From: Verrucomicrobiota bacterium
Lineage (GTDB): Bacteria; Verrucomicrobiota; Verrucomicrobiia; Opitutales; Opitutaceae
Direction of reading: 5' to 3'
DNA length: 64,000 nt
Assembly (NCBI GenBank): GCA_016871755.1
Contig: VHCJ01000012.1
Span: 1-64,000 of the forward strand
This document shows, piece after piece, positions 26,178 to 41,380 of this stretch. The first letter of the stretch is position 1, and every line of letters starts with the position of its first letter. Below the pieces are notes generated by a model. That model was given only the letters and a program-made list of their open reading frames with translations, was not told the origin of the DNA and ran no database searches. Made by a program: the position numbers and the translations under genes.

Positions 26178-27065
26178 ATCGGCGCGCAGGATCGCGAGCG
26201 CCGCGACCACTGTGGTCTCGCTGCGCAGCACGCGCGGCCCGAGATGCGCCAAGGCAAAGCCCGCCGCCCGCAAAGCGTCGCGATCGCGCGGCCCCCACCC
26301 CCGCTCGGGTCCGATCGCAAGCACGCACGCCTCGCCCGATGCCAAGCGCCACGCCCCGAGCGGCGCGGTGGCTTCGTAATTGTCGAGGGCCAGGCGGCGG
26401 ATTCCGCCCTCCACCGACGGCGCCGCCGCTGCGACCGCTGAGCTCGAGCCGCCCGGAAGCTTCGCGGCGCCCGCAAGTCCCGCGCGGTCCGTCGGCGGCG
26501 CGGAACCCTTTGACCAGACGGATCGGTGCGACTCGGCGGGTTCGCTCACTCCACTGGGGCCCGCGGATTCATCGCTCCCACACGCCCCGGCCCACCCTGC
26601 CGCGAGATGAGCGGACAACTCCGTGTCCCACGTCACGCGCGGCAACTGTGTGGTGAACGCCTGTGCAGCGCCGGCGCAGAGATGGTCGCGCCATTCCCCG
26701 GAGGACCACAAACTGCTCTGGGCGTACTGCGGCTCGGAACGCTCGGTCCGCACGAAGTGCAACGCCGCCACGCCCAGCGTCGTCGCCTCCTGGAGAATCT
26801 TGCGGGCGGTCTGGGGTCGGGCGAGACCCACGAGCAACGTGAGCGGCGGCAGCGGTGGCGGAGGCGGACCCCACGTGAACTCCAGGTGCAGACCGGCGGA
26901 GTCGACCGCCCGTACGGCGGCCTTGCCCCGCGGCCCATCGACCAACCCGACATCGAACGTCTCGCCCGGCACCCGCCGCAGCACGGTCAAGACATGGACC
27001 GCGCGCGGGTCGTCGGCCGGCAGCGGCCGACTGAGTTCATGGCGTTCGAGAAGGACGAGATTCAC
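26163..27065 (-). CDS. rsmE: 16S rRNA uridine-1498 N3-methyltransferase
   Basis: 300 residues from GTG 27065. A PUA-like N-domain (HVLTVLRRVPGETFDVG) precedes a SPOUT domain with LLVGLARPQTARKILQEATTLGVAALHF, LAIGPERGWGPRDRDALRAAGF and LGPRVLRSETT, which are RsmE signatures. The family is usually about 240 residues; the extra length is a Gly/Ser/Pro-rich insert at about residues 158-215 that does not look structured. It methylates U1498 of 16S rRNA. Confidence 0.9.
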   Translation of the reverse strand: MNLVLLERHELSRPLPADDPRAVHVLTVLRRVPGETFDVGLVDGPRGKAAVRAVDSAGLHLEFTWGPPPPPLPPLTLLVGLARPQTARKILQEATTLGVAALHFVRTERSEPQYAQSSLWSSGEWRDHLCAGAAQAFTTQLPRVTWDTELSAHLAAGWAGACGSDESAGPSGVSEPAESHRSVWSKGSAPPTDRAGLAGAAKLPGGSSSAVAAAAPSVEGGIRRLALDNYEATAPLGAWRLASGEACVLAIGPERGWGPRDRDALRAAGFALAHLGPRVLRSETTVVAALAILRADSGFA

Positions 27066-27602
27066 GGAGACGCGCGGGAGCGTTGACGATCCCCGCCCCG
27101 CTGTCGCGCCGGATCTGCGGAAGGCGGGATCGCTCGCCGCACCGCGTGGGCTGGTGAGACCTCCATGCCACGGGGCCACCACCTCGCGGACTAATTAGCG
27201 AAGCCGCGACAAAGGGTGCCTTGTCCGTTGCGGGCAAGGGGGTCTTGAGCCTTTTGACCGATGCCGCTGCGGAGGGACGTGCTCCCTGAATCCGGACCGC
27301 CGCTCTGTCAGACCTCCGGCGTGGGCGACCCCCGGCCCGAGTGCACCCATGCCAAGGACTAGATCGAACCGGCCTCGATCAACCGCGTTTTGGCACCGCT
27401 CGTGGCGGCGGCGATCGCCGCTGCAGTGCCGGCACACCGGCTTCCGACCACGGCGACGCCGCATTCCGCAGGATGAAGTTTCGGCGCCACGTTTGCTCCC
27501 TAAATGCCCCCTCCCGGCCGGATCCCCCGCAAAATCCAGCTTACTAGCACCAAACGCATCCGAGCTTGCGTTTAGTCGCGCGAAACGTCATCGGAATGGC
27601 GT
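27066..27602. other. Intergenic stretch with an inverted repeat before the DUF4143 gene
   Basis: About 540 bp with no recognisable gene. An inverted repeat AAACGCA (27552-27558) / TGCGTTT (27567-27573) lies 30 bp before the ATPase start and could be an operator. The sequence at 27530-27600 is less GC-rich than its surroundings. Confidence 0.45.
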
Positions 27603-28751
27603 ATGGTGAACCGTCGTTTTTGGCTCGACCGCATTGAGCGCCAGTGGCCCCGCCGACCCGTCCTCTGGTTGCGGGGGGTGCGGCGCGTCGGCAAGACCTC
27701 GCTCGCCCACTCTCTCGCCGGCATCGAGTACTTTGACTGTGAGCTGCCGCGCGTCCGGCGGTCCATGGAGGACCCGGAGGCGTTCCTGCAAAGCCTCCGC
27801 GGCCGGCGTGTGGTACTCGATGAGGTCCACCGCCTGCCCAACCCCTCGGAGTTGCTCAAGATCGCGGCCGATCACTTTCCGACCACGCGTGTTCTGGCCA
27901 CCGGCTCCTCAACCCTGGGGGCCAGCCGCCGGTTCCGCGACACCCTCACCGGCCGCAAGACGGAACTGTGGCTCACCCCGATGATCGAGGCTGACCTGGA
28001 GGACTTCGGCCAACGCGACCTTCCGCACCGACTCCTGCAGGGCGGCCTGCCTCCCTTTTTTCTCTCGTCGGCGCCGCCCGAGCGCGAGTTCCAGGAATGG
28101 ATGGACGCCTACTGGGCGAAGGACATTCAGGAACTCTTCCGGCTCGAGCGGCGGGTGTCGTTCCAGCGGTTCGTCGAACTCCTGCTCGCCCAGAGCGGCG
28201 GCATCTTCGAGGCCACTCGATTCGCGAGTCCCTGCGAGGTCAGCCGGACGACCATTGCCAACTACCTCGCCGTGCTTGAGGCCACGTCCGTCGCCATTGT
28301 CCTCCGGCCCTTCAGCTCGCGCCGCGCGAATGAGATCGTCGCCGCGCCCAAGGTCTACGGCTTCGACACCGGATTTGTCTGCGCGCACCGTGGCTGGACG
28401 CACCTGCGGCCCGAGGACCGCGGCCACCTCTGGGAGCATTACGTGCTCAATGAACTCACCGCTCGGCTCCAGACGACCGCGATGCTCCGCTACTGGCGCG
28501 ACAAACAGGGTCACGAGGTCGATTTCATCTGGACGCCGCGGGGCCGGCCGCCGTTCGCCATCGAGTGCAAGTGGTCGGCCCGCGACTTCGATCCTGGCAA
28601 CCTCGCCGTCTTCGCCCGAGCCTACCCAAAGGCGGAACTGCGCGTCGTGGCCCAGGATGCGCAGCCCGCCTTCACGCGGCAGCACGGGCAGATGAAGATC
28701 CGCTTCGTCTCGCTCTCAACGCTGGCCGACGAGGTCGCGCCGCCGGCCTGA
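27603..28751 (+). CDS. AAA ATPase of the DUF4143 family (first copy)
   Basis: 382 residues. Walker A GVRRVGKTS near residue 28, Walker B RRVVLDEVH near 70, sensor-like LATGSSTLGASRRFRD. The DUF4143 C-domain ends with a PD-(D/E)xK-like core (HEVDFIW then PFAIECKW near 310-330). The family is common, often horizontally mobile and of unknown function; defence or stress roles have been suggested for relatives. A second, divergent member lies at 38475-39710, so the two copies bracket the accessory mosaic. The start is ATG 27603; no clear ribosome site is visible. Confidence 0.85.
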   Translation: MVNRRFWLDRIERQWPRRPVLWLRGVRRVGKTSLAHSLAGIEYFDCELPRVRRSMEDPEAFLQSLRGRRVVLDEVHRLPNPSELLKIAADHFPTTRVLATGSSTLGASRRFRDTLTGRKTELWLTPMIEADLEDFGQRDLPHRLLQGGLPPFFLSSAPPEREFQEWMDAYWAKDIQELFRLERRVSFQRFVELLLAQSGGIFEATRFASPCEVSRTTIANYLAVLEATSVAIVLRPFSSRRANEIVAAPKVYGFDTGFVCAHRGWTHLRPEDRGHLWEHYVLNELTARLQTTAMLRYWRDKQGHEVDFIWTPRGRPPFAIECKWSARDFDPGNLAVFARAYPKAELRVVAQDAQPAFTRQHGQMKIRFVSLSTLADEVAPPA

Positions 28752-29240
28752 GCCGGGCGCCGAGGGGCAGTCCGAGGACGATCCCGAAGTACGCTCCGCG
28801 TTCCGCTGCTGCGGGCGCCCGCCGGGTGTCGAAGAACCTGCGGTCTTGCGCGCGAGCTTTACGGGTGCGGGGCCCGGTCGCGCAGCGCAACCAGTGGAAC
28901 AGCTGCGCCAAGCACGAATTGGCTGTTGCGGCCTCCACGTGAAAGGTGGTCAAGCGTCGCAGTAACGCCATTGAACCCGAGGACGGCGCGGGAGAACCCG
29001 TGCTCCAGCTGGTCCTCACTCGATTCCGACGCGATGGCAGCACGGCGTATGTCCGTCTCACCATCACCCGGCCTCGCCACGCGACCCTCAAGACCTACAT
29101 CGGCCAAGTCGTCCTCAACGCCGAAATCAAGAGCGCTCGGTGGCGTTCCAACTCAAGGCCTTGGTGAACCAGCCAAACGCGAACCGACGTGCCGCCGAGG
29201 CTTGACCTCGCCGGCGTGCTGCAAACACTCTGGCCATTCC
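28752..29240. other. Intergenic stretch; one doubtful small frame
   Basis: About 490 bp upstream of tRNA-Gly. A frame from GTG 28946 to 29167 (73 residues: VLQLVLTRFRRDGSTAYVRL and similar) has a GAAAGG-like ribosome site just before it but no known relative. I leave it unannotated. Nothing else is seen. Confidence 0.4.
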
Positions 29241-29314
29241 GCGGCTGTAGTTTAGTGGTAAAACTCCTCTCTTCCAAAGAGGTATCGTCGGTTCGATTCC
29301 GTCCAGCCGCTCCA
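29241..29314 (+). tRNA. tRNA-Gly (anticodon TCC), CCA encoded
   Basis: A full cloverleaf: acceptor GCGGCTG/CAGCCGC, D stem GTTT/AAAC, anticodon stem CCTCT/AGAGG with loop CTTCCAA (anticodon TCC, reads GGA), T loop TTCGATT, discriminator T and genomic CCA at 29312-29314. The T stem has one U-U mismatch at 50/64. The accessory mosaic begins immediately downstream, which is typical of a tRNA used as an integration site, but I see no copy of the tRNA 3' end at the far border. Confidence 0.93.
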
Positions 29315-29376
29315 TGCTTTCCCAACTCAATGATGAGCGCGGACTTACAAAGCAGGAGGAGACGAAGAGCCGGCCT

Positions 29377-29413
29377 TACTTACTAACAAAAAGGGGCCTA
29401 CTTACTAACAAAA
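29377..29413. repeat. Two 15-bp direct repeats just after the tRNA
   Basis: TACTTACTAACAAAA occurs at 29377-29391 and 29399-29413, 22 bp apart start to start. They are AT-rich within GC-rich DNA and lie about 60 bp beyond tRNA-Gly, at the left border of the mosaic. They could be arm-type integrase sites or a simple duplication. Confidence 0.7.
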
Positions 29414-29451
29414 CGCCAGTCTCCGCCAGCGCTTGCGGATGACGCGGAAGG
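29414..29451. repeat. Dispersed 38-bp repeat, left copy
   Basis: Begins CGCCAGTCTCCGCCAGCG and ends GACGCGGAAGG. A copy differing at three bases and one inserted G lies at 37118-37156. Contains the motif CGCCAG twice. The two copies bracket the mosaic region in the same orientation. A 7-bp inverted repeat (GCATCGG/CCGATGC, 29451-29469) follows directly. Confidence 0.65.
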
Positions 29452-29610
29452 CATCGGACGGGCCGATGCGAGCCCGCCTACGGCATTCGCCAGACCTGAG
29501 GATCGCGCAAGAGTCGACGCCGCACCGTCGCAGCTTCGGAGCTTAGAGCGGCCGATATAGGCCCGGAAGTCTCTTGGCTCCGCCTCCGCGATCCGCCAAA
29601 AACAAGATCG

Positions 29611-30378
29611 GTGAAAGCTCACACTCTCATCCTCCTTACGCTGGCCGTCCTTGCCGCCAGCATTTTGATCGGCCTCGACGTTTCAAGGCAGCAGGTCGCG
29701 GCCGCCGCTCCGCCGATTACCGAAACTCACACCATCACGAATGCGAGTCAGGAGACCGCTTGGTTCATACTTGGTCAGGCCTACCGAGACGGCGATGGCG
29801 TAGCGAAGGACGAGGCAGAGGCGGTCAAGTGGTTCCGCAAGGCTGCGGAACAGGGAAATGCCCCTGCCCAAAACAGCCTCGGCGTAATGTACGACAAAGG
29901 CACCGGCGTTACGAAGGACGAGGCAGAGGCCGCGAAGTGGTACCGCAAAGCGGCGGAACAGGGACTCAGTAAAGCGCAGGTCAACCTCGGTGAGTGCTAC
30001 TACTACGGCACCGGCGTTACGAAGGACGAGGCAGAGGCGGTCAAGTGGTTCCGCAAGGCGGCGGAACAGGGGGTCGCGAGTGCCCAGTTCAACCTCGGCG
30101 TAATGTACGCCAACAGCCAAGGCGTCGCTAAGGACGGAGTCGAGGCGGTCAAGTGGTTCCGCAAGGCGGCGGAACAGGGTAACGCGAGTGCCCAGTTCAA
30201 CCTCGGCTTTATGTACGCCAACGGCCAAGGCGTTGCTAAGGACCAAGTCGAGGCGGTAAAGTGGTACCGCAAGGCGGCGGAACAGGGGGTCGCGAGTGCC
30301 CAGTTCAACCTCGGCTTTATGTACGCCAACAGCCAAGGCGTCGCTAAGGACGGAGTCGAGGCGGTCAAGTGGTACTGA
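29611..30378 (+). pseudogene. Sel1-repeat protein gene, cut off in a repeat by the 103-bp palindrome
   Basis: 255 residues from GTG 29611. A membrane anchor or signal (LILLTLAVLAASILIGL) is followed by six 36-residue Sel1 repeats of the form 'AxxxLGxMYxxGxGVxKDxxEAVKWYRKAAEQG'. Units at 30071 and 30287 are nearly identical over most of a 216-bp period, so recent amplification is likely. The last repeat stops at VKWY because the palindrome's first three bases are TGA. Sel1 proteins are periplasmic or surface scaffolds for protein contacts. The missing continuation may be the scrap at 32559-32776, which begins one residue past the break. Confidence 0.8.
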
Positions 30379-30478
30379 CCTGACCCCGAAATTTTGAGCC
30401 GCCTTGGGTGTTAGTCTGGGCCACAAGAGAGGACCCAGACTAACACCCAAGGCGGCTCAAAATTTCGGGGTCAGGTCA
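30376..30478. repeat. 103-bp perfect inverted-repeat element (MITE-like)
   Basis: Two 45-bp arms match without error (30376-30420 and 30434-30478) around a 13-nt loop (CCACAAGAGAGGA). The outer ends read TGACCTGACCCC and GGGGTCAGGTCA, like terminal repeats of IS3-family elements. There is no room for an ORF, so it is probably a miniature non-autonomous element or a joined pair of IS ends. TGA at each tip ends the Sel1 frame on the plus strand and the small membrane-protein frame on the minus strand. In RNA it would form a very stable hairpin from either side. Confidence 0.85.
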
Positions 30479-30805
30479 AACCAACAGGCCGAGCAGAATC
30501 GTGAGGGATGCGCCGATCCCGACCAGGGCCGAGATGATGGTGCCTAGGATGGCGAAACTCTTGTTCCGGTTCGCCTGAAAGAGTCCGGCGATCCCCAACG
30601 CGAAGGACACGACGCACGAAGCGAGGGAGAGAATGAGAAGCAGGCCGATGGTGATGGCAGCAGGCGACTCCTCGTCGATGCCGCCGGGCGTGGCCGACTC
30701 AAGAATGCTCGCCACCCCGAAGAGGCCTGCGGTGACCAACGCAGTCACGAGGCTGAGGATGAATGCCGTGATTCCGAGACCGCTGTGTTTGGGAGTTTCG
30801 CTCAT
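30476..30805 (-). CDS. Small membrane protein, DUF4190-like
   Basis: 109 residues with three hydrophobic segments: ITAFILSLVTALVTAGLFGV, AITIGLLLILSLASCVVSFALGIAGLF and FAILGTIISALVGIGASLTILLGLLV. The order 'LGI.AFILSL' near the start and 'N-KS-AILG' before the last segment resembles DUF4190 proteins. The stop codon is the outer TGA of the palindrome's right arm, so the original C-terminus may have been longer. Confidence 0.65.
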   Translation of the reverse strand: MSETPKHSGLGITAFILSLVTALVTAGLFGVASILESATPGGIDEESPAAITIGLLLILSLASCVVSFALGIAGLFQANRNKSFAILGTIISALVGIGASLTILLGLLV

Positions 30806-30976
30806 CGCTTGGCTCCACTCATCATGGACGATTCAGACCACGGGTAAAGCGCAAGTGTGGGCGACCTGCCCGCGGTGCGCATCAACGTCACCGGCGACGC
30901 GTCCGAACCGATCAGGGTTATTGCAGGTGCGGCACTTTACGGAAGGTGATCAGCGGGGCTGCGACAGCCGCGCTCG

Positions 30977-31411
30977 ATGAGTCGCCTGTTAGCGATAGGG
31001 CTACTGCTGATAACATCACTCCTAGCCGGATGCGTCACCGCCCACGTCACACCCGAGCAGCTTGCTTCAGCTAACTATGGGCCCGAGCCGACCGACTACG
31101 CCGATCGCGTTAAGGCCTACATGGAGACGCGCTTGAAGGATCCCATGTCGGCTGTCTACAAGTTCAACCCGGTCCTTAGGCGCGCGGCATTGATGGAAGT
31201 CGTTAACTTCGAGAAGCGACGGGCGATGGGCAAGGACGGTGTTGCATTCGAAAATGTCTATGGCTGGACGGTTGAGGTCGCAATCAACGCGAAAAACTCA
31301 CTTGGCGGGTACACCGGAGCCGTGCAGTACTACTTCATGCTTCCGACGGACCGAGAGATCATCGACATTACCGCTAGCCTTCAGACAAAAAGAGCCGCTT
31401 TTGTGGATTAA
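30977..31411 (+). CDS. Hypothetical lipoprotein
   Basis: 144 residues, MSRLLAIGLLLITSLLAGCVT with a lipobox LAGC at residues 16-19. The mature part (DYADRVKAYMETRLKDPMSAVYKF, then GWTVEVAINAKNSLGGYTG) has a compact alpha/beta pattern seen in small secreted proteins of unknown role. ATG 30977 starts the signal peptide. No family is recognised. It lies between the palindrome and the IS3 remnant. Confidence 0.65.
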   Translation: MSRLLAIGLLLITSLLAGCVTAHVTPEQLASANYGPEPTDYADRVKAYMETRLKDPMSAVYKFNPVLRRAALMEVVNFEKRRAMGKDGVAFENVYGWTVEVAINAKNSLGGYTGAVQYYFMLPTDREIIDITASLQTKRAAFVD

Positions 31412-31447
31412 CTTTCTGCGATGATGTGGAATGGGAACAATACTTCA

Positions 31448-31545
31448 ATGGACCATAGAGCATTCGCCATCACTGTCGCCGCCACACTCATGGTAAGCGG
31501 CTGCGATTCGCGGAGCGACCGCTACCAGATTCATGCCAGCGATAA
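31448..31545 (+). pseudogene. 5' scrap of a second lipoprotein gene, broken by the IS3 remnant
   Basis: Starts MDHRAFAITVAATLMVSGCDSRSDRYQIHAS, with lipobox VSGC. At about 31545 the frame passes into the antisense of IS3 orfB and loses meaning. The scrap lies 36 bp after the preceding lipoprotein gene. The exact boundary is uncertain by about 15 bp. Confidence 0.6.
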
Positions 31546-31549
31546 GGGA

Positions 31550-31927
31550 GGCGGCAATCGGTTGCGCGTGGCGACTGTCCGTGGTGCGGGGGCGCCGGCA
31601 GTGCTTCTTTTTGCCGCGCAGTCCTTCGGCCTGCATCAGCCGAGCGCACCGACGCTTGCTTGTGCGCGTGCCCGCCGCCCGGAGATCCTCGACGATCCGC
31701 GGCACCCCATAGGTCCCCCGGCTGGCCCGATGGGCGGCGGTAATCTGCGCGGTGAGGGCCGCATCCTCCCGCTGCCGGGGACCGGGCTGCTGCTGGCGGC
31801 TGCGATAATAGCCACTGGGCGATACGCCCAGCAGATCACACAGCATCCGGATCGGGTGCTCGCCTTTCATCGTCTCGATCTGGGCATACCGCTCTCGGGC
31901 GTTTCGGAGAGGATGCCCAGCGATTTT
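31550..31927 (-). pseudogene. IS3-family transposase OrfB, 3'-truncated
   Basis: In the -1 frame relative to orfA: ERYAQIETMKGEHPIRMLCDLLG, GVSPSGYYRSR, then the HTH_21 segment GTYGVPRIVEDLRAAGTRTSKRR and RPRTTDSRHAQPIA. The catalytic DDE integrase core that should follow is absent. Expression would need a -1 shift at the A7 run. Confidence 0.75.
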
Positions 31928-32214
31928 TTTAGGACGCTCTCCCGCTCGCGCATGCGGATCACCTCCGCCCGCAGGCGCTCATTCTCCTTCACCGCGTCCT
32001 CCAAGGTTTGGGGTGGCGGCCCTCCGTCGCCCGGGCGGGGCGCATACAGCTTGCGCCACTCGTAGAGCTGCCAGGCGGGCAGCCCCAATTCCTTCGCCAC
32101 AGTCTTCACCGTGCGATCCCCGTGCAGCGTCAGCTCCACGGCATGGCGTTTATACGTTTCGTCGAACTTGCGCCGGGGCGTGGCCCCGGACCCATTCCGG
32201 TCTTTCTGGTTCAT
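31867..32214 (-). CDS. IS3-family transposase OrfA
   Basis: 115 residues: RRKFDETYKRHAVELTLHGD, the helix-turn-helix KTVAKELGLPAWQLYEWRKLY at about residues 35-55, and a leucine-zipper-like segment ENERLRAEVIRMRERESVLKKSLGILSETP. This is the standard OrfA layout that binds the element's ends. The A7 run codes for the KK in VLKKSLG. Intact in itself, but inactive without OrfB. Confidence 0.8.
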   Translation of the reverse strand: MNQKDRNGSGATPRRKFDETYKRHAVELTLHGDRTVKTVAKELGLPAWQLYEWRKLYAPRPGDGGPPPQTLEDAVKENERLRAEVIRMRERESVLKKSLGILSETPESGMPRSRR

Positions 32215-32257
32215 GTTTTTCCTTCTGGCGCCCGAACCAGCCGACTCCGTGTCCTCC

Positions 32258-32319
32258 GCTGTTTGGTCGCTTCCTGCGGCAAGCTCTTCGGCTCCTGTCC
32301 TCGGAAGCGACCAAACAGC
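32258..32319. repeat. 17-bp inverted repeat in the IS debris
   Basis: Perfect arms GCTGTTTGGTCGCTTCC (32258-32274) and its complement (32303-32319), 28-nt loop. It lies 44 bp before the orfA start and between two IS3 scraps. It may be a leftover of an element end or a transcription-blocking hairpin. Confidence 0.6.
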
Positions 32320-32349
32320 TACCCGTCAACGCGGATGTCTGTGTCCACT

Positions 32350-32421
32350 AAATCGAGGCAATCTCAGCCGCACAGCTCGCTCGGCTACGAATCGCCGCAA
32401 CGCTTCGCGGCGAAAAACACT
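32350..32421 (+). pseudogene. C-terminal scrap of an IS3-type OrfB on the opposite strand
   Basis: The frame reads KSRQSQPHSSLGYESPQRFAA, the usual end of the IS3 integrase core (RPHSSLGY.TP..FA). It is on the plus strand, opposite to the orfA/orfB remnant, so it either comes from a second element or was inverted. The borders are approximate. Confidence 0.65.
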
Positions 32422-32558
32422 TTACCAATCCGAGGCTCCGGGCCGGACCGCCAAGCCGGTCCGTCCCTCCGCCTGGGATTGCCAACCAACATCGAACCCA
32501 CCACATCTACCCACGTCTCCGACTGACATCAAAGGTGGAGCAGTTCCGGCGTCCCTCT

Positions 32559-32776
32559 CAGTTCCGCAAGGCAGCAGAACAGGGGCACGCCCGAGCCCAA
32601 GGTGCCCTTGGTGTTTGCTACAGCAACGGCACCGGCGTCGAGAAAGACGAGGTCGAGGCCGTAAAGTGGTACCGCAAGTCGGCAGAACAAGGGCTCGCCG
32701 AAGCCCAACTTGCGCTTGGCAGCATGTACAGGTACGACACCGGTGTTCCGAAAGACGAGGTAGAGGCGGTCAAGCG
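32559..32776 (+). pseudogene. Second Sel1-repeat scrap
   Basis: Two Sel1 units: FRKAAEQGHARAQGALGVCY, then AVKWYRKSAEQGLAEAQLALG and VPKDEVEAVK. The sequence then switches without a break, at about 32776, into the antisense of a Tat signal-peptide gene. The scrap resumes almost exactly where the Sel1 gene at 29611-30378 was cut, so the two may be parts of one ancestral gene separated by about 2.2 kb of inserted material. Confidence 0.65.
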
Positions 32777-32888
32777 GCCCGGGCGTCTCGGCGGGGCCGT
32801 CCGCCGCCGCCGCGCCGGCCAGCGGCCACATCAGCCCGGCGGCGGCCAGGGCCTGCGGGAAATCGCGGCGGGGCAAGGGACGGGTCAT
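32777..32888 (-). pseudogene. Severed Tat signal-peptide end of a secreted protein gene
   Basis: Reads MTRPLPRRDFPQALAAAGL and then MWPLAGAAAADGPAETPG before running into antisense Sel1 sequence. The RRDF...AAAG pattern resembles the signal of the next gene (SRRDFLHVLTAAG), so this is probably the 5' stub of a tandem paralogue of the secreted hydrolase. Everything after about 37 codons is gone. Confidence 0.65.
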
Positions 32889-32923
32889 GACGCTGGGGAA
32901 TGGCCGCGCGTGCGGCGGTGGAC

Positions 32924-34465
32924 TCAGTCGGGCTGGCCGGACAGGGGGGCAAACCGGAAGGAGAACAGGTCGGCGTCGTGGAGCACGAAGCGCAGGCGGA
33001 CCGCCCGGCCGGCGAGCGCGGTGAGGTCGGCGCCGTGCCGCCAGCGCACGAGGCGCCCGGTTTCATCGCCGATGAGCTCGGCGCAGTCCTCGGCGGAGAA
33101 GCCCGACAGCGGCACGCCGGCGGCATCGAGGAGTTCCACGCGCACGCCACCCGCGGCGCTGGTCGAGAAATTCAGCCGGAGTGTCTCGCCGGATACCCGG
33201 ACCGGCTTGGTGAGCAGCGTGCCGCCCGCATGCGGGGCGCACGCGGAGGCAAAGCCGTCGACGCGCAGGAGCAATCGCTCGATGTGCCATGAGTCCTGGA
33301 GATAGTTGCGGGTGACGAAGAACATCATGCCGTCAGGACCGGCCGGGAAGAGCCCGGTGAGCGGGTAGTTCGTGCGCGAAACCCAGTTGCCCGCCCCGGG
33401 GCCCGGGCGCACCAGCGCCTCCGGGAAGGTGCGGTCGTACGTCTCCGTGCCGGCGCGGGTCGTGAGCAGGACGCCGTCGGAGCAGTCTAGGTTGTAGCGG
33501 CCTCCGCGCGGCGACCTGAGCCCGATGGCCGCGGCCTGCTCGTCCGTGATCGCGCTCCGGCCCTCCATGAAGCGGGCCGCAAGGGCGATGTAGAAATGCG
33601 GGGCGCGGAAGTACGGACCCGTGTTGTTGACGTAGAACTGCTCGGCCGGCCCGTCCCCGTAGGTCATGGGCGCGGGCGCGCCCCATTGCCGGAGATCCGG
33701 CGAGGTCGTGCGTGCCATGGCCCGTTGCCGGCCTTCCGTCATGATCCGGTAATAAAAGACATATCGCTGCTCGACCTCGCTCCAGAAGAGGGTGTTGCCG
33801 CCGTCGAAGCTGTTGGGGAGATCGCTGACGAAGGTCGGCTGGCGCTCCGCCGGCAGCTTGCGGAAGACCAGACCGTCGCCCGAGGCCCACAGCTCGATGC
33901 GCTTGGGGCCCTTGGGGTCCCGGAAGGCGGTGTGCGCCTCGCCGCTGAGCGCCACGCCGCGCACGGCCTTGACGCGCTCGTCGTCCGGCACTCCCGGGCG
34001 CGTGTCGAGCCACACGGTGCCGCCGAGCGGCTGGCCGGTCTCGTCGAGGACGAAGTTTGCGTCGTCGCGGCCCGAGGCGGGATCGCGGGCCAGGGCGGGC
34101 TTGGTCCAAGTGACGCCGTCCGCGCTCACGGCGACGCAGGTGCGCCCGGAGGCGTCGTCCGGGTGCATCGTCATGGCGCGGTAATAGAGCAGGAACCGGT
34201 CCCGATGCCGGATGACCACGTTGCCGAAGTTGAGCGGTCCCTCCCAGGGCCGGTCGATCTTGATTGCGACGCCCGCGCGCACCGGCTCGTGCAGGCGCAG
34301 GGTGACGTGGTCGAGCCGCTCGATCAAGGCGCGGTCGACGAACAGTTCGCGGCGGTGGCCCAGGTCCACCGCGGCCGGCAGGGCCTGGGCTGTCCCGCCG
34401 ACGGTGCCGGCCAGCCACAGGGCGCCGGCGGCGGTCAGGACATGCAGGAAATCGCGGCGGGACAT
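32924..34465 (-). CDS. Tat-secreted glycosidase-like protein (five-bladed beta-propeller)
   Basis: 513 residues: Tat signal MSRRDFLHVLTAAGALWLAG, then VDLGHRRELFVDRALIERL, a propeller with repeated Asp-rich blades (GVTWTKPALARDP, FDGGNTLFWSE, YVFYYRIMTEGRQR), and a C-terminal beta-sandwich with GVRVELLDAAG, VRWRHGADL and LHDADLFSFRF. The architecture resembles GH43/GH32-like proteins of Verrucomicrobia and Planctomycetes; the catalytic acids cannot be assigned safely. It is the only complete member of a local tandem family (stub at 32777, headless copy at 34791). Probably acts on plant or algal polysaccharide outside the cell. Confidence 0.75.
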   Translation of the reverse strand: MSRRDFLHVLTAAGALWLAGTVGGTAQALPAAVDLGHRRELFVDRALIERLDHVTLRLHEPVRAGVAIKIDRPWEGPLNFGNVVIRHRDRFLLYYRAMTMHPDDASGRTCVAVSADGVTWTKPALARDPASGRDDANFVLDETGQPLGGTVWLDTRPGVPDDERVKAVRGVALSGEAHTAFRDPKGPKRIELWASGDGLVFRKLPAERQPTFVSDLPNSFDGGNTLFWSEVEQRYVFYYRIMTEGRQRAMARTTSPDLRQWGAPAPMTYGDGPAEQFYVNNTGPYFRAPHFYIALAARFMEGRSAITDEQAAAIGLRSPRGGRYNLDCSDGVLLTTRAGTETYDRTFPEALVRPGPGAGNWVSRTNYPLTGLFPAGPDGMMFFVTRNYLQDSWHIERLLLRVDGFASACAPHAGGTLLTKPVRVSGETLRLNFSTSAAGGVRVELLDAAGVPLSGFSAEDCAELIGDETGRLVRWRHGADLTALAGRAVRLRFVLHDADLFSFRFAPLSGQPD

Positions 34466-34523
34466 GGAGTGGGAAACGGGGGGGAAAGGGGAAGGCGGGC
34501 CGTGGGCGGGCGTGGCAGGCGGG

Positions 34524-34668
34524 TCAGGACCAGGACTCAGCCGCGCGCAACACGACCGGACCGAGGAGGCCGGAGGGCAGCTGCCGGCCGTCGAAGGTGT
34601 TCGCCATGGAGTTTGTCACGCGGACCTCGAGGCGGTTCACCCCCTGGAAGGAAACCGGATTTTGCTGG
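34524..34668 (-). pseudogene. C-terminal scrap of a GH2-like glycoside hydrolase
   Basis: An unlisted short frame ends at TGA 34524-34526 and reads NPVSFQGVNRLEVRVTNSMAN followed by a GRQLPSGLLGP segment and VVLRAAES. This is the closing beta-sandwich typical of GH2 or rhamnosidase-type proteins ('VTNxxAN...SGLLGPV'). Upstream of about 34668 the frame no longer resembles such proteins. No start is present. Confidence 0.55.
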
Positions 34669-34790
34669 GGTTGGGTCGGGTGGGGGTTACCGGAGGCATG
34701 GATCGGGTCCGGATTTTCGAGCCACCGCTAGGTTCGGTCTGGGTGATTGGGTGAGGTTGATGTCACTGACGTTGGTTGTCGATCCGGATA

Positions 34791-35783
34791 TCATTGGGAC
34801 CGGATTCTAAGGGCGTAGACGGTCGCCTTATTCAGGTGGATTCGGACGTGATAATCACCCGCGGGCAGATTCGCGGGGCGGCCTTTCCACCTGACTTCGT
34901 GCCGCAATGAATCACCTTTGATCTCAACCGCGTCGTCGGCGGTGTATCCCTCGATCCGCCGGGCCGACGCATCCAGGAGTTCCACGCGAATGCCGTTCAC
35001 CGCATTGGCATTGAGCACGAGGGATTCGGATCCGGAGAAGTGCAGGGGCTTGAGCGTGAGCTGCCCGATGTCGTCGAGCGGCTTCCGCAGATTCGGTCCA
35101 GCACTGTGAGCCACGGATTGGACGCCCGCAAAGCGATCACGCGGCAGGGTCGCCATGCCCAGCCCGGTGGTCAGCACCATGTCATCCGCACCCGTCGCTC
35201 CCTGGGAATACGCGCCGTAATAAAGCCGGATCTCATCGTCGAGCACCACAGGCTGCGGGCTGAGGAAGATCGAGCCGCTGTCGAACTGATGCCCCGGACT
35301 CCGCGCGAGCCAGAAGGGCTTGCGGTAATCGCGCCGCCAGGTCTCGCCGTCTCGACTCGTCGCGAGCTCGATGTCGATCACACCGCCCCCGGTCGCGCGG
35401 TCCAGGATCTGCAGCGGGGAAAAGTAGATGCTCTGGTAAATAAAAACCGGGGTCGTGTGGTACTCGACCCACACCGGGTCCACGTCGTCCGGACTTAGAA
35501 TCAGCTGTGGCGTGGACCAATGAATGAAGTCCTTGCTCTCCGTCCGGCCCATGGCGTGTTTCCAGTACATCCCGCCATCCGGCCCATCGATCCACATTTT
35601 GCCGTAGATTGCATAGACGCCTTTCGACTCGTCCCAGAGTGCATCGAGCGCGTCCGACATCACGAGCGGGTTGGCCCAAGGCATCGCGTTGGAATTCCGC
35701 ATCGGCACCGGCGTCCCTAAATTGCCGTAGGACGCGCGCAGCAGCGGCCCACTGGCACCTCCAATTACGAAACCCGCGATCAA
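34791..35783 (-). pseudogene. Headless copy of the secreted glycosidase-like family
   Basis: About 315 residues correspond to the propeller and C-terminal sandwich of the neighbouring protein: WIDGPDGGMYWKHAMGRTESK, FDSGSIFLSPQPVVLDDEIRL, GIRVELLDASARRIEG, VRWKGRPANLPAG, ATVYALRIRSQ. The N-terminal signal and first blade are missing; in their place the frame continues upstream into an unrelated domain scrap (LIAGFVIGG). No credible native start exists (the open frame begins at TTG 35783). It is a decayed or chimeric paralogue. Confidence 0.7.
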
Positions 35784-35828
35784 AATATCACCGCCAGCGC
35801 CGACGCGATTACGAGCAGAGACATTAAG
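35745..35828 (-). pseudogene. Scrap of a Verrucomicrobia surface-protein domain fused to the hydrolase remnant
   Basis: In the hydrolase remnant's frame, codons from 35825 read NVSARNRVGAGGDILIAGFV and then IGGASGPLLRAS. That pattern (N-S-R-x-VGTG...LIAGFVIGG...LLIRA) is a recurrent extracellular repeat in Verrucomicrobia proteins. It joins the hydrolase at about 35745 with no stop. A TAG at 35835-35837 closes the frame upstream. Confidence 0.55.
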
Positions 35829-36247
35829 TAGTCGCTACCCTTTTCGTAGAACGCTGGCGCTAGCGTACGCACCGGCTCGCGCACCAGCCTACCCCCAGGC
35901 CCATCGAGCACGGCTTGGGGCGCATTCACGCGCTCAAGCCAGTCCCCAACCGACAACCCTTGCGGCCACCGAATCAAACGGTGTTCGGCCTCAATCTCCC
36001 CAAAGTCCGCGCCATCCGGCAGTTGAAGCTCTTCTTGATTCAGCCGCGGCACCGCCACCTCCTGCCGCACCAGAACCAGCTGGCGGACTTGCCCGTTGAC
36101 GATGAACGCCAGCTCCCGCGAATCGTTCAACTCACGCGCCGCCTGGGCGGCGGATGGGCGCTCGGACATGGCCCCGCAGGCCACTGCCGCTGTACAAAGC
36201 AGGGCAACCAGAACGCGTAGGACTTCAAACGGGGAGCTTGGGGACAT
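35780..36247 (-). CDS. Hypothetical secreted or anchored protein
   Basis: 155 residues from ATG 36247. N-terminal signal with possible lipobox (LVALLCTAAVACGAM), then RELNDSRELAFIVNGQVRQLVLVRQEVAVP and LPDGADFGEIEAEHRLIRWPQGLSVGDWLERV, ending in a membrane segment (LMSLLVIASALAVIF). The last 15 codons lie over the domain scrap in another frame, so the C-terminus may be accidental read-through. No family recognised. Confidence 0.45.
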   Translation of the reverse strand: MSPSSPFEVLRVLVALLCTAAVACGAMSERPSAAQAARELNDSRELAFIVNGQVRQLVLVRQEVAVPRLNQEELQLPDGADFGEIEAEHRLIRWPQGLSVGDWLERVNAPQAVLDGPGGRLVREPVRTLAPAFYEKGSDYLMSLLVIASALAVIF

Positions 36248-36464
36248 TGTGAATGGGTCGTCCGATGGTCGGCGCCGTCCGCACCCACCCACTGAACCTT
36301 GTGCGTGTAGCCCGTGCGGGAAGACTTCCTTGATCCGATAGATTTTGACGCTCACACCCTGATCACGGATCACTACCGGGAACTTTGCGATTCGGGCTGC
36401 GGAAAAAATTGCCCAAAATCGACCACGGAAGTCAACGTTTCGGTACTTTTGAGTACGTAACTCC

Positions 36465-36815
36465 GCCGGTTTCACCCGGAGAAGACCCGCCTGGTCGATC
36501 TGGCTGAGCCGGGAGGCTTCGACTTCCTCGGCTACCACTTCGAACGGGGCCGACGCTGGCCGCGCCGCAAGGCGATGAACCAGCTGCGGGAGAAGGTCCG
36601 CACGCTGACCCCGCGCACCAGCGGGGTCGCGCTGGAGGAGACCGTCGCACGCCTCAACCCGGTGCTGCGGGGTTGGTTCGGTTACTTCCAGCATGGGCAC
36701 CGTCTGGTGTTCCCATCGGTGGACGGTTACGTCCGGGGTCGGCTCCGGGCCATCCTGCGCCGACGCGCAGGACGGGCCGGACGGGCCTGCGGCCGGGACC
36801 ACCAACGACGGCCAC
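36465..36815 (+). pseudogene. ltrA: C-terminal tail of a group II intron reverse transcriptase/maturase
   Basis: Reads FHPEKTRLVDLAEPGGFDFL then GYHFERGRRWPRRKAMNQLR, LEETVARLNPVLRGWFGYFQHGH, YVRGRLRAILRRRAGR and GRDHQRRPH. This is the X (maturase) domain at the end of LtrA-type proteins. All of the reverse-transcriptase palm and fingers and the intron RNA are missing, and the last few residues are lost too. A dead remnant. Confidence 0.8.
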
Positions 36816-36998
36816 ATGGATGAGCCTAGGTTTCCCACCGGTGAGGAACTGCTGGCCGACGCTAAGCGGGGCTTCCCCCAGTACTATCTCCTTGGGGAAG
36901 AGGAGGAGATCTGCGCGCTAAACGCCCTCGTACTGGCGCAGGTGGCGTTTGTCATGGCGGTGAATGCCGTGCGACCCAAGAGCGACAGGGAGGCGTGA
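36816..36998 (+). CDS. Small hypothetical protein
   Basis: 60 residues: MDEPRFPTGEELLADAKRGF then PQYYLLGEEEEICALNALVLAQVAFVMAV. One amphipathic, partly hydrophobic helix. No ribosome site and no family. It starts exactly at the broken end of the maturase tail, so it may be a chance frame. Confidence 0.3.
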   Translation: MDEPRFPTGEELLADAKRGFPQYYLLGEEEEICALNALVLAQVAFVMAVNAVRPKSDREA

Positions 36999-37117
36999 AG
37001 ACTACGTTTGGCGGCGGAATGTAAGGTGTAGCGGATTCTGGGATCCAACAAGGGTGTCGAGTGCTGGAGCTACTGAGACAGAAATTATAGTACACCTTTC
37101 GAGGAGGTGGTTAAGAG

Positions 37118-37156
37118 CGCCAGCCTCCGCCAGCGTTTGCGGGTGACGCGGGAAGG
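37118..37156. repeat. Dispersed 38-bp repeat, right copy
   Basis: Begins CGCCAGCCTCCGCCAGCG and ends GACGCGGGAAGG. Differs from the copy at 29414-29451 by three substitutions and one extra G. It marks the right edge of the mosaic; beyond it the sequence is ordinary coding DNA (SDR gene at 37258). Confidence 0.65.
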
Positions 37157-37257
37157 TCCCGCAGGAAAGCAGAGTACAAGGCCCAGCCTGACCCTCTCGG
37201 ACTCTCGCCCAGCGCCGGAAACTCCCCCACTCCGACACTTCCACGCCACCACCCGCC

Positions 37258-38214
37258 ATGCCCAAGCCCCTTCTCTGCGACCCATCGCTCCTTGCGACTG
37301 ACCTGACCGGGAAAACCTACGTCGTCACCGGCGGAAACTCGGGGATTGGCTTCACCACCGTCGAACAGCTGGCGAAGCAGGGCGCTACGGTCGTCCTTGC
37401 CTGCCGTCGCCCCGCCGATAGCGAGCGCGCGACGTCCGACATCCTCGCGCGGGGCGTGCGCGGCACGATCACCGTGGAGGGGCTCGACCTCGCGGACCTC
37501 GGATCCGTCCGGGCCTTCGCCGCCAGGGTGTTGGCGCGTCATCCCGCGATTCACGGTCTGGTCAACAACGCGGGTGTCATGAACACGCCCAAGGGCCGCA
37601 CGAAGGACGGTTTCGAAACCCAGTTCGGCACGAATCACCTCGGGCACTTCCTGCTGACGGAACTCCTGCTCGAACGGCTCAAGGCCAGCGCGCCTTCGCG
37701 GATCGTCATCCTTTCAAGCTGCTATCACGACATCGCCGTCGGCCGGAAGGGCGTGATCGATTTCGACGACCTGCAGTTCGATCGCCGCCCCTACGACAGC
37801 TGGGCCGCCTATGCACAGTCCAAGCTGGCGAACCTGCTGCAGGCCAAGGAACTGGCCGCACGGCTCGCGGGGACCGGCGTCACCGCCGTCAGCGTGCATC
37901 CGGGCTGGGTGCGAACGCGGCTGCTGCGTTCGTCGATGCCGCTGTGGGCGCAGGACACGCTCCTGCGTCCCATCCTCCGGATGGCGGGCATGCTGGAACC
38001 GTGGGAAGGCGCGCAAAGCACGCTCCACGCCCTGCTTTCGCCGGAGGTTCCGGAGCACAGCGGCGCCTTCTTCAGCCAGATCGGCTGGTACCGCGACAAG
38101 CGCGCCAATCGCGGCGGATGGCCCCTACGGTCGCCCAACCCTCAGGCCCACGAGCCGGGCGTCGAGGTCAGGCTCGCGGAGGTCTCGCGACGGCTCGTCG
38201 GCCTGCCGGGCTGA
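37258..38214 (+). CDS. Short-chain dehydrogenase/reductase, retinol-dehydrogenase-like
   Basis: 318 residues. Cofactor motif YVVTGGNSGIGF near residue 22, LVNNAGVM near 100, the catalytic Ser in VILSSCYH and YAQSK near 180, then VSVHPGWVRT. The WWA/RDH-type spacing and the C-terminal AFFSQIGWYRDKRANRGG segment put it near retinol-dehydrogenase/oxidoreductase SDRs. NAD(P)-dependent and cytosolic; substrate unknown. It is the first ordinary gene after the mosaic. Confidence 0.88.
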   Translation: MPKPLLCDPSLLATDLTGKTYVVTGGNSGIGFTTVEQLAKQGATVVLACRRPADSERATSDILARGVRGTITVEGLDLADLGSVRAFAARVLARHPAIHGLVNNAGVMNTPKGRTKDGFETQFGTNHLGHFLLTELLLERLKASAPSRIVILSSCYHDIAVGRKGVIDFDDLQFDRRPYDSWAAYAQSKLANLLQAKELAARLAGTGVTAVSVHPGWVRTRLLRSSMPLWAQDTLLRPILRMAGMLEPWEGAQSTLHALLSPEVPEHSGAFFSQIGWYRDKRANRGGWPLRSPNPQAHEPGVEVRLAEVSRRLVGLPG

Positions 38215-38474
38215 GCGATCGCCGTGTCAGCCTGAAGCGATCCTGCGGGCACGCGCACCTCGTCGGTCAGCCAGAAGCGGAACGCGCAGCCGGTCACCTC
38301 ATACCATCCGTCCCGGGCATCGAAGCGACAAGCGGTCCAGCCTCCGCCGTCGCGTCGGACGCTCGCGCGACGGCCTTCATCCGCCTTCGAATCCCCGGAG
38401 GCTGGTGATCCATGCAGGCGCGGGGCCTAGGCAGACCGGACCGCTTCGGCTGGCCCCGCGAACGCCACCAGCCC

Positions 38475-39710
38475 TCACAGGCAGTGCCAGGGCAGGGCGA
38501 CGACGCGGTCGTCGAGTTGCTCGGGACGGGGGCAACGGCAGATGACGTACCCCATCGGCGCCACCTTGCCCTGCTCCTCGAGGAACGGGATCACGTGGCG
38601 GGCGTCGTCACGACGAGGACGCTCGGTCCATTTCACCTCGATCGGGATCAGTTTCCGATCGATCTCGACCACGAAGTCGATCTCCGCCCCATCTTTGGTG
38701 CGAAAGTGGTGGAGCCGTCCCCGGCCCAGGTAGCCGAGTCGCTTCCAGAGTTCCGCGCCGACCCACTGCTCCAGCGCGCGTCCGGGGTCGGCATTGACCG
38801 CATCGGCCCCCGGAGTCAGTCCCGCGGCCGCATGCCGCACCCCGAGGTCAAAGAAGTGAAACCGCGGCGTGGAGGTGAGGTTCTTCCGCGGACTGCGGGA
38901 GAATCCCTGAATGCTGAAGCCGATGAACATGTCCTCCAGCAAATGGTAGTGACCCTTGACGGTCACCGGCGAAATGCCGACCTCCTTGGCGATCTTGGCG
39001 AAGTTGACGACTTGTCCCGACTCGATCGCGGCGAGTTGCAGGAAGCGCAGGAACGCCCCCCAGTCCCTGACAAGGGCCTCCCGACGAATCTCCTCCTCCA
39101 GGTGAGCCAGAGCGTAGGCGCGCAGCAGGTCCGGGCGGTCCGCGGCATCCGCGAGGACGATCCCCGGCAGGTCACCGTAAGCCAAGCGGTCCTGCAGGCT
39201 GGCGGAGGGGAAGGGCGTGGCCAAAGGCACCACCGGCACGGGCAAGGGCGAAGCGATGTCGCGGGCGCGGGGCTCCGAGGCCGGGCGCTCGGCGAGAAGG
39301 AGCGGAAAGAGACGGTGCTGCAGACTTCGACCCGGAAGCAGATTGGCCCCGGTTTGCCGCAGCTTGCGGGCGGAACTGCCGCACAGGACGAAACGCCAGC
39401 GCCCCTTGTCAGCGTCGTAGAGCGATTGCACCGCATCAAAGACCGCCGGCACCGTCTGAGCCTCGTCGACCACCACGAAGTGAGGCGCGCTCCGGCGCGG
39501 AAGCGCCTGACACGCCCGGGTGAAGGCCCCGGGATCAACGAGCAACCGGGAGCGTTCCACGGGATCCGACAGATTGAAGAACAGCGAGGGCTCCGGCAGC
39601 AGGCGCCGCAGCAAAGTCGTCTTGCCCGTCTGACGTGCTCCAAACAGCACATGCACGTAGGGCTTGGCCAAAGACCCCGGCAACGACGACTCGATCCATC
39701 GCGAGTACAT
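38475..39710 (-). CDS. AAA ATPase of the DUF4143 family (second copy)
   Basis: 411 residues. Walker A FGARQTGKTT near residue 24, Walker B HFVVVDEAQ near 75, a winged-helix-like segment NFAKIAKEVGISPVTVKGHY (about 215-235) and a PD-(D/E)xK-like end (DGAEIDFVVEIDRKLIPIEVKWTE). The start ATG 39710 follows an AT-rich promoter with TTGACA and a palindrome. Distantly related to 27603-28751 but with a longer N-terminus. Family function unknown; often mobile. Confidence 0.85.
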   Translation of the reverse strand: MYSRWIESSLPGSLAKPYVHVLFGARQTGKTTLLRRLLPEPSLFFNLSDPVERSRLLVDPGAFTRACQALPRRSAPHFVVVDEAQTVPAVFDAVQSLYDADKGRWRFVLCGSSARKLRQTGANLLPGRSLQHRLFPLLLAERPASEPRARDIASPLPVPVVPLATPFPSASLQDRLAYGDLPGIVLADAADRPDLLRAYALAHLEEEIRREALVRDWGAFLRFLQLAAIESGQVVNFAKIAKEVGISPVTVKGHYHLLEDMFIGFSIQGFSRSPRKNLTSTPRFHFFDLGVRHAAAGLTPGADAVNADPGRALEQWVGAELWKRLGYLGRGRLHHFRTKDGAEIDFVVEIDRKLIPIEVKWTERPRRDDARHVIPFLEEQGKVAPMGYVICRCPRPEQLDDRVVALPWHCL

Positions 39711-39718
39711 GTCACTTC

Positions 39719-39745
39719 ATTTATATCGTATATAACGTCTGTCAA
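39719..39745 (-). promoter_or_regulatory. AT-rich promoter with overlapping palindrome, DUF4143 gene 2
   Basis: On the minus strand TTGACA (39740-39745) and TATAAA (39720-39725) are 14 bp apart, a short spacing. Between and across them is the palindrome TTATAT-CGT-ATATAA (39721-39735). The stretch is strikingly AT-rich compared with its surroundings. An autoregulatory site is plausible. Confidence 0.5.
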
Positions 39746-39886
39746 GTAAACGACTGCGCGGTGGGGCGGCGTGGCAAAGTCGGAAGCGGGGCCGCTCCGG
39801 GGACTGCGGACGGACGGCCCACCCATTCGCGGATCGCAATCACGCAGCCATCCCGCCAGAGTCTCGCTCCGTCGTCCGGTCCCGAC

Positions 39887-40855
39887 ATGCACCCGCGCAC
39901 GCTGTTCACGTTGTTCTGTCTTGTCGCCGCATCTGCGCTCTCCGCCGAGTCTGCGGCATCCCGGCAGGTTCAGTCGCTCCGGATCACCCTCCTCTCCACG
40001 ATGCTGGCCGACGGCAATGGCATCGGTGAGTGGGGGTTCGCGGCTCTGGTCGAGGCCGATGGCCACCGGCTCCTGTTCGACACGGGAAACTATCCACATG
40101 TCGTCCTCCGCAATGCCGAGGCACTGCAAATCGATCTGACCACCGTGCCTGACGTGGTCCTCAGCCACTCGCACTCGGATCACACCGGCGGGTTTCTCGC
40201 CGTGCGACGGGCTGCGGCCAGCCAGAACCCCTCTGCCCTTGCCCGCACGTTTGTGGGGGAGGGGATTTTCGAGGTGCGCGCGGATTCGAGGAACGCGCCG
40301 CAACAGACATTGATGCTCGATGCGAAGCGCGACTACGAAGCCAGTGGCGGCAGGTTCGAGGTGTGCACCGGCCCGCGCGAGATTTTCCCCGGCGTGTGGC
40401 TGACCGGTCCCGTGCCGCGCACGTATGCCGAGCGCAACTGGAGCGGACAGGGCGTGATCGTCACGCCCGCCGGCCGCATCGAGGACACGCTGCCCGAGGA
40501 CATGGCGCTCGTCTGCGACACCGCGCAGGGCCTCGTCATCCTGACCGGCTGCGGCCACGCGGGCGTCGTGAACATCATCGAGCATGCCCGCACCGTCGTG
40601 CGCGCCGCCCCGGTGCACGCCCTCATCGGCGGCATCCACCTCTTCCGGGCCTCGGAACCGACGCTGGACCAGACCGCGGGCAAGCTCCGCGAGTTCGGCG
40701 TCGCGCATTTCATCGGCGCGCATTGCACCGGCCTCGAGGTCGTCTACCGCTTCCGCCGCGACCTCGCGCTCGACCGCGCCCAGGCGGTCGTCGGCGCCGT
40801 CGGGGCAAGCTTCGTCCTCGGCGAGGGCATCAAGCCGGGCGACCTCGCGAAGTGA
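39887..40855 (+). CDS. Secreted metallo-beta-lactamase-fold hydrolase
   Basis: 322 residues. A signal peptide (TLFTLFCLVAASALSAES) precedes an MBL domain: LLSTMLADGN, WGFAALVEADGHRLLFDTG near residue 60, LSHSHSDHTGG near 95, LILTGCGHAGVVNII near 225 and IGGIHLF near 250. The layout matches the 7,8-dihydropterin-methyl-transferase-like/MBL group also seen in archaea, but here it is exported. The metal-binding HxHxDH is intact. Divergent from the DUF4143 gene; the start is ATG 39887. Confidence 0.83.
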   Translation: MHPRTLFTLFCLVAASALSAESAASRQVQSLRITLLSTMLADGNGIGEWGFAALVEADGHRLLFDTGNYPHVVLRNAEALQIDLTTVPDVVLSHSHSDHTGGFLAVRRAAASQNPSALARTFVGEGIFEVRADSRNAPQQTLMLDAKRDYEASGGRFEVCTGPREIFPGVWLTGPVPRTYAERNWSGQGVIVTPAGRIEDTLPEDMALVCDTAQGLVILTGCGHAGVVNIIEHARTVVRAAPVHALIGGIHLFRASEPTLDQTAGKLREFGVAHFIGAHCTGLEVVYRFRRDLALDRAQAVVGAVGASFVLGEGIKPGDLAK

Positions 40856-40984
40856 CTGGGCCGGGCCTGCCGGGTCGTCGCCACGACGCTCGCCGAAGGT
40901 CCGAAATCCCGATCCACGATCGCGTCGCCGCAGCCACTTGGAGAGGCCGCGGAGAGGAACGTCGGCGTCGTGGCGGACCAGCTA

Positions 40985-41041
40985 GGACTCAATCCGTTCG
41001 GGGCCTCCTTGAGTCCGAGGACTACGGTGGGAATTTCCCAC
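40985..41041. promoter_or_regulatory. Two inverted repeats upstream of the toxin-antitoxin pair
   Basis: GGACTCAA (40985-40992) / TTGAGTCC (41009-41016), and the near-perfect palindrome GTGGGAA-T-TTCCCAC (41027-41041). The second ends 40 bp before the antitoxin start. Type II modules are usually autoregulated by the antitoxin, alone or with toxin, at such sites. Confidence 0.5.
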
Positions 41042-41080
41042 TTGCGTACGTGTGGGCAGACTACTTTCTTGAGGATTACC

Positions 41081-41377
41081 GTGCGCTCCGTGGTCAAAGA
41101 TTCCCGCTTCGAGTTGGTCACCGAAATCCTCAAGCCTGACGCCAAGAAGCGTCTCACGTTGGGTCAGGTGCTGCAGGAGGAGGGCGTGGCGTACAACGTC
41201 TACCGCAACCGACTCGGGCAGATCATGCTCGATCCGGTCAAAGCGGTGCCGGTCTCCGAGACGTGGCTTTACGACAACCCGCCGGCGCTCGCTGCCGTCA
41301 AGCGCGGCCTGGCCGACTCGGCCGCCGGGCGCACCCGCAAGCGCGGTTCTTTCGCCGCCTACGCGAAAGAGGAGTGA
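41081..41377 (+). CDS. Putative type II antitoxin
   Basis: 98 residues from GTG 41081, with a GAGG ribosome site six bases before it. The N-terminal region (LVTEILKPDAKKRLTLGQVLQ) could form a dimerising DNA-binding fold; the acidic C-terminus (LADSAAGRTRKRGSFAAYAKEE) is the kind of flexible tail that wraps a toxin. A DNA-binding family cannot be named confidently. Three bases separate it from the RelE-like toxin gene, the usual antitoxin-first order. Confidence 0.65.
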   Translation: MRSVVKDSRFELVTEILKPDAKKRLTLGQVLQEEGVAYNVYRNRLGQIMLDPVKAVPVSETWLYDNPPALAAVKRGLADSAAGRTRKRGSFAAYAKEE

Positions 41378-41380
41378 TTC

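Follow-up and report, generated by a model that had tools for sequence, protein, structure and literature searches.

The palindrome and its flanking genes

Near the middle of the window (the whole stretch of DNA that was analysed, 64,000 nucleotides), two convergent reading frames end on a perfect inverted repeat at positions 30376-30478. The first, on the forward strand, is the 5' part of a Sel1-repeat gene (29611..30378; Pfam Sel1, E 2.8e-71), which is cut by the element and takes its TGA stop from the element's first three bases. The second, on the reverse strand, is the gene of a 109-aa protein (30476..30805) that is membrane-like by eye, reached no family above its cut-off in Pfam or NCBIfam, and likewise has its stop supplied by the element. 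The closure of both frames on a tip TGA agrees with the original prediction. Further to the right lie a 144-aa ORF (30977-31408; lipoprotein-like by eye, no Pfam or NCBIfam match) and, on the reverse strand, separate IS3-type transposase fragments (31445..32214; HTH_21 and HTH_Tnp_1). They are followed on the forward strand by the remnant of an orfB 3' end from another IS3-family element, IS_C (32359..32523), whose right tip ends at 32560. Right after this tip (..CTCTCA|GTTCCGCAAG), Sel1 repeats, recognised as homologous by eye, resume on the forward strand (32561..32774). The rightward gene at 32924-34465 has many paralogues, so a search with it was uninformative on synteny.

The inverted repeat is 103 nt long, with arms of 45 nt each (30376-30420 and 30434-30478) that are 100% complementary and separated by 13 nt; a repeat search confirmed this geometry as originally claimed. 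Given the base composition, such an arm pair is expected by chance about 2e-18 times per 64 kb. A scan for perfect arms of at least 20 bases, no more than 3 kb apart, covered 442,364 bases, made up of the window and 41 contigs from its genome, and returned seven repeats. Where the loop was below 1 kb, the arms of the palindrome were the longest, the next being 43, 39 and 36, and a single pair in the same scan had longer arms (97 bp, 1.2 kb apart). The RNA fold of the palindrome was computed at -97.8 kcal/mol, compared with a shuffle mean of -31.0.

At its left side, the palindrome breaks the Sel1 gene mid-repeat. The two Sel1 parts (29611-30375 and 32561-32774) are 2185 bp apart, and a 4-bp overlap between them (GTAC/GTTC), noted by eye, preserves the repeat phase. 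This suggests that one larger insertion, with a left tip of IS_A and a right tip of IS_C, may once have split the Sel1 gene; IS_A is our label for the resident IS3-family element whose left end matches the palindrome. At the right side, the membrane gene was searched for in 57 genomes and matched in four, among them the host genome and one more distant relative. By eye, the gene of two congeners is one residue (Ser) longer and ends on its own TAA, so that the copy in the window lacks this final codon together with a stop of its own. Homology to these congeners starts no more than 4 bp from the right edge of the palindrome and spans about 480 bp. An ancestral adjacency of the Sel1 and membrane genes was not seen in the two congeners, where the membrane gene lies on other contigs with no Sel1 gene beside it.

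The wider region was compared with related genomes. Positions 1-27133 and 29183-29465 of the window are largely collinear with the congener G005 (rows of at least 120 bp), in which the left side lies on contig C9, pieces of 41762-42093 on C1 and 45441-51114 on C3. In the congener G003, one contig of 4105 bp carries window positions 26594-27127 and 29191-29314 and then, about 460 bp further on, pieces of 41204-42070 (75-79% identity). Positions 29315-41203 form an island of about 11.9 kb that holds the palindrome and is absent from G003, where the island sides are neighbours about 460 bp apart; collinearity across the island is apparent from G003 alone. Relative to the same genome, the window has an additional insertion (27128-29190, about 2 kb), which carries a gene for an AAA_14/DUF4143 ATPase. 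A scan for viral contigs found nothing. The two flanks of the palindrome seem to be drawn from different loci, because the homology on the right starts at the edge of the element, the Sel1 gene breaks mid-repeat, and in G003 the island sides adjoin without the membrane gene.

The arms as left ends of a resident insertion sequence

Nucleotides 1-65 of the palindrome (30376..30440, forward strand) match the left end of IS_A at 15 further places in the host genome (3.67 Mb in 144 contigs), all no more than 242 bp from a contig end. The match is 100% in 4 of these copies and 95-98% in 11. The left arm (30376..30420, forward strand) corresponds to the outer 45 bp of this end (IRL), which are identical in all 15 of the other left ends; differences between copies occur only further inward. 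At the 15 copies, CCCAGAC (TCCAGAC in two of them) runs into CATGAAAGGCAAACG..., with which an IS3-type orfA begins, and beyond the shared 65 nt the true IS copies continue with CATGAAAGG (orfA start). The perfection of the arms had been taken as a sign of recent origin or active maintenance; it requires neither, because the IS_A family is homogeneous and the 45 bp are shared by 15 of 15 other left ends. A 38-bp fragment of the left end was also found on contig C98, beginning 115 bp from the contig end, and two weaker matches on C58 (78-83% over 24-37 nt) are part of other repeats.

The orfA of IS_A matches HTH_Tnp_1 (PF01527) with 48.9 bits (cut-off 24.1), and the orfB that a sister element carries on contig C87 matches the NCBIfam IS3 model NF033516 with 219 bits (cut-off 160). 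A whole IS_A, or a whole IS_A orfB, was not found among the contigs of this genome. With its predicted IS3-type transposase and its IS3-like ends, the parent element is assignable to the IS3 family. The nearest named records with these ends belong to Lacunisphaera and Opitutus MAGs and to an uncultured Opitutae bacterium. The proposed derivation from an IS3-family element with these ends is therefore borne out by the presence of such an element in the host genome and in relatives: the search with the 103 nt led to the 15 further left ends in the former, and full-length related IS were found in the latter. The earlier description as IS3-like at the tips named the right family but was too weak, as the entire left 65 nt constitute an IS3-family left end.

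The right end of IS_A was sought by comparing 111 contig ends (100 from contigs and 11 from added loci, most of the latter with a left end). It was found at nine places, 99-127 bp from the contig edge, and a 30-bp fragment was found at a tenth. Aligned with the left end, it gives 35 identities, 8 mismatches and 3 gaps. The right arm of the palindrome (30434..30478, reverse strand) equals the reversed left end at 45 of 45 positions, in the opposite orientation, and does not match the right end, from which it is set apart by the same 8 mismatches and 3 gap positions. Because of this exact agreement with one end and the divergence of the other, the palindrome runs from left end to left end, not from left to right.

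An Opitutus MAG (CAMAXB010000269.1) contains an element of 1273 bp that unites both ends, with 98% identity over 48 nt at the left and 96% over 55 nt at the right. Four further full-length relatives measure 1279-1280 bp, and in all five (L198, L203, L223, L224 and L068) the two ends are unlike, with 31-37 identities over 45 nt. Left out as not full length were L070 (3105 bp between the ends, interrupted), L072 (929 bp) and the host's own copy of a related element, IS_B (L025; 1120 bp), the ends of which align with 35 identities, 6 mismatches and 8 gaps. A mini-element in a relative (L066; SIBQ01000012.1, approximately 2190-2297, reverse strand) consists of an IS_A-like left end, a short stretch and an unlike right end; the latter resembles the ends of IS_C and IS_D, and the mini-element is possibly a hybrid.

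The palindrome is flanked by TAC and AAC and has no target-site duplication, and neither has any of the five full-length relatives, which is unusual for the IS3 family. A comparison of 18 left flanks (from the 15 copies at contig ends, both sides of the palindrome and the C98 fragment) against 10 right flanks gave two agreements, one of 3 bp and one of 4 bp, which is about the chance level; neither was at the palindrome. With duplications lacking in all five full-length relatives, their absence from the palindrome carries no weight for or against any origin.

Directly 5' of the orfA start, the left end of IS_A contains the sequence GTCTGGG-13 nt-CCCAGAC, a potential leader hairpin whose loop includes a Shine-Dalgarno-like sequence. 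In the palindrome, the 5' half of this hairpin lies at 30414..30420, the loop, CCACAAGAGAGGA, at 30421..30433 and the 3' half at 30434..30440, all on the forward strand; the loop is in sense orientation and identical in 4 of the 15 IS_A copies. The leader hairpin alone folds at -15.1 kcal/mol. Over 11 leaders from the host genome and relatives, 97.3% of cells pair, compared with 0-59% when one side is slid. A covariation count on these 11 leaders found a compensatory change in 0 of 7 pairs, and shuffles reached the same values in 500 of 500 cases. For these reasons, the hairpin is conserved at the level of the alignment, and as a selected structure it is not proved.

Origin of the palindrome

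Based on the results of our analysis, the palindrome is probably the scar of a deletion by which two opposed IS_A left ends were brought together. Both arms are left ends of a homogeneous family, and the junction between them is exact: the palindrome leaves the IS sequence precisely at CCCAGAC, a 7-bp microhomology joining the two ends, so that CCCAGAC|TAACACC stands here versus CCCAGAC|CATG in real copies (TCCAGAC in two of 15). Under this reading, two opposed IS_A copies would have been present with their left ends outermost, one within the Sel1 gene and the other at the 3' end of the membrane gene. Because the leader hairpin is self-complementary, such copies would offer CCCAGAC as a direct repeat. 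Replication slippage or break repair between the 7-bp repeats could then have led to the loss of both IS bodies and everything between them. The expected remnant would begin with 58 nt from one left end, pass through the common CCCAGAC and finish with 38 nt from the opposing one, with no further change needed to arrive at 103 nt.

The apparent derivation of the flanks from two sites fits the loss of DNA between two IS copies. The model presupposes an earlier rearrangement that placed the membrane gene beside the Sel1 gene, and the single larger insertion that seems to have split the Sel1 gene (30376-32560) is a feature that it leaves unexplained. No second copy of the palindrome was found in the host genome, and among 200 family genomes it is present in one, the host genome itself. 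An exact-pattern search was extended to 252 family genomes, one per species; the pattern read backwards also fits any normal left end, and the loops were sorted by eye. Among the 65 matches listed of 66 (the remaining one is in G144), 61 were ordinary left ends read backwards, one was the other strand of the palindrome, two (in G164 and G001) were chance-like, and one, in the window, was a sense-loop junction with a reversed arm. An opposed IS_A pair in its state before deletion was not found by exact pattern in these 252 genomes.

The alternative that survives best is an assembly artefact, in which the short-read assembly would have reduced either real IS_A copies in opposed orientation or a chimeric fold-back read to a hairpin. 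We consider this unlikely, although it retains some weight: IS_A copies break contigs in the 144-contig draft, and the palindrome is the sole match to the IS_A left end that lies away from a contig end (the 15 others are no more than 242 bp from one, and the C98 fragment starts at 115 bp). It also occurs in no other genome searched (200 or 252 family genomes), and a second same-end palindrome, on contig C40, is likewise found only 126 bp from a contig end. However, the letters of the junction occur nowhere else in the genome, and real reads or chimeras must therefore have supplied it; moreover, crossing a 65-nt repeat common to 15 other copies should, we infer, need longer support. A random mis-join is also unlikely, as the sides of the island are neighbours in G003, whereas a local collapse would keep the sides together.

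A snap-back template switch at one IS_A, with the nascent strand folding on CCCAGAC/GTCTGGG and copying the left end back, could readily be primed by the leader hairpin, and it is exactly at this hairpin that the junction is located. A simple fold-back, however, would run on into the left flank, whereas the right arm stops precisely at the IS tip, where the end of an unrelated gene adjoins it. This route would call for a second event that terminated precisely at the tip, and flanks seemingly drawn from two sites speak against a fold-back at one site, which makes it rather improbable.

We regard it as very improbable that the palindrome is an ordinary MITE, as first proposed, produced by internal deletion of one IS_A with its left and right ends kept: a left-plus-right mini-element does exist in the relative L066, but both arms are left ends here (45 of 45 positions in the right arm, from which the IS_A right end differs), and a single copy was found, with no second one in the genome. 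A bidirectional stop-and-terminator cassette selected for the two convergent genes is hardly credible either, for although both ORFs end on the tips of the palindrome and the hairpin is very strong, the IS_A tip carries stops in all three frames anyway (at nt 1, 6 and 20), the Sel1 gene is broken mid-repeat, the membrane gene is left without its own stop, and no terminator-like site was found on either strand. A scan of 30200-30700, which takes loops of 3-8 only, detected 0 U-tract terminators on either strand, and by eye no T-run follows either tip. The original prediction of a stop-and-hairpin element had also raised the prospect of copies lying preferentially at gene ends; the searches revealed no further copy in such a position. 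The stop codons that end the two genes are a by-product of the IS tips. Any effect on the host would be passive, consisting of these stops and a long hairpin in the converging transcripts, and a 45-bp cruciform or RNA hairpin could hinder polymerases.

Other inverted structures were observed on further contigs. On C40 (L107, 14613-14830), two right ends of IS_B form 43-bp perfect arms around a 132-nt middle of rearranged orfB tail. On C87 (L124, 2353-2566), right ends of two different IS3-type elements, IS_D and IS_C, face each other, with a joint that by eye lies near a short inverted repeat of the orfB tail (GGACCG...CGGTCC). On C42 (L109, 12784-13067), 39-bp inverted arms belong to another repeat family (CCCGGATCCGATCCCCCTGAAAATCCAGTTTCCTTTCAG), and related sequence occurs at seven further contig ends. 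The IS_B palindrome on C40 is a hint that the formation of same-end palindromes recurs. The broader idea, that the hairpin at the left-end boundary of IS3-type elements in this bacterial family is a built-in deletion and fold-back site, repeatedly making perfect same-end palindromes out of opposed copies that the transposase might still recognise, is rather improbable at present.

Overall, the palindrome is real as a sequence and of IS origin, and it is most likely an essentially ordinary genome scar. A striking perfect palindrome can thus come from ordinary IS traffic, without selection on the palindrome, and an IS leader hairpin can double as a deletion joint. Perfect inverted repeats at gene ends should not be read as regulatory cassettes until the parent IS is known at both of its ends.

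Comparison with known systems

The palindrome shares with IS3-family elements its left 65 nt, which match a resident IS3-type left end, and differs from them in having neither transposase genes nor a right end. It resembles IS-derived MITEs in being short and non-coding with long inverted repeats that match a resident IS; unlike them, it has two identical left ends and is present in a single copy. It is also unlike an intrinsic bidirectional terminator, in which a T-run would follow a G+C-rich hairpin on each strand. A limited word search of titles and abstract starts found no published account of such a same-end scar.

With regard to the joint, occlusion of the ribosome-binding site by a leader hairpin has been described for IS200 (PMC3196728) and for ISPpu9 (PMC8450116). 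IS_A is similar in that a conserved hairpin, the loop of which contains a Shine-Dalgarno-like sequence, immediately precedes its start codon. It differs in that its hairpin is deduced from sequence alone, without covariation, and in that the 3' half of the hairpin became the joint of the palindrome.

The closest parallel we can offer is Tn10. Nearly precise excision of Tn10 is a deletion between short repeats inside opposed IS10 ends. It has been treated as recombination between short direct repeats (PMC12524634) and involves internal inverted repeats (PMC5991714). The palindrome differs in belonging to another IS family, in showing no sign of a composite transposon, in having flanks that seemingly come from different loci and in the lack of a target-site duplication; on our side, the comparison is drawn from one static sequence. 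In both cases, the IS copies are opposed (in ours, the former copies are putative), and recombination would take place at short sequences repeated in inverted orientation inside one IS end. As expected of an excision scar, the remnant consists of the outer ends of what would have been two opposed copies of one IS, and the joint lies at a short repeat internal to these ends (CCCAGAC). In Tn10 as at this locus, the outer ends persist as a short palindromic remnant.
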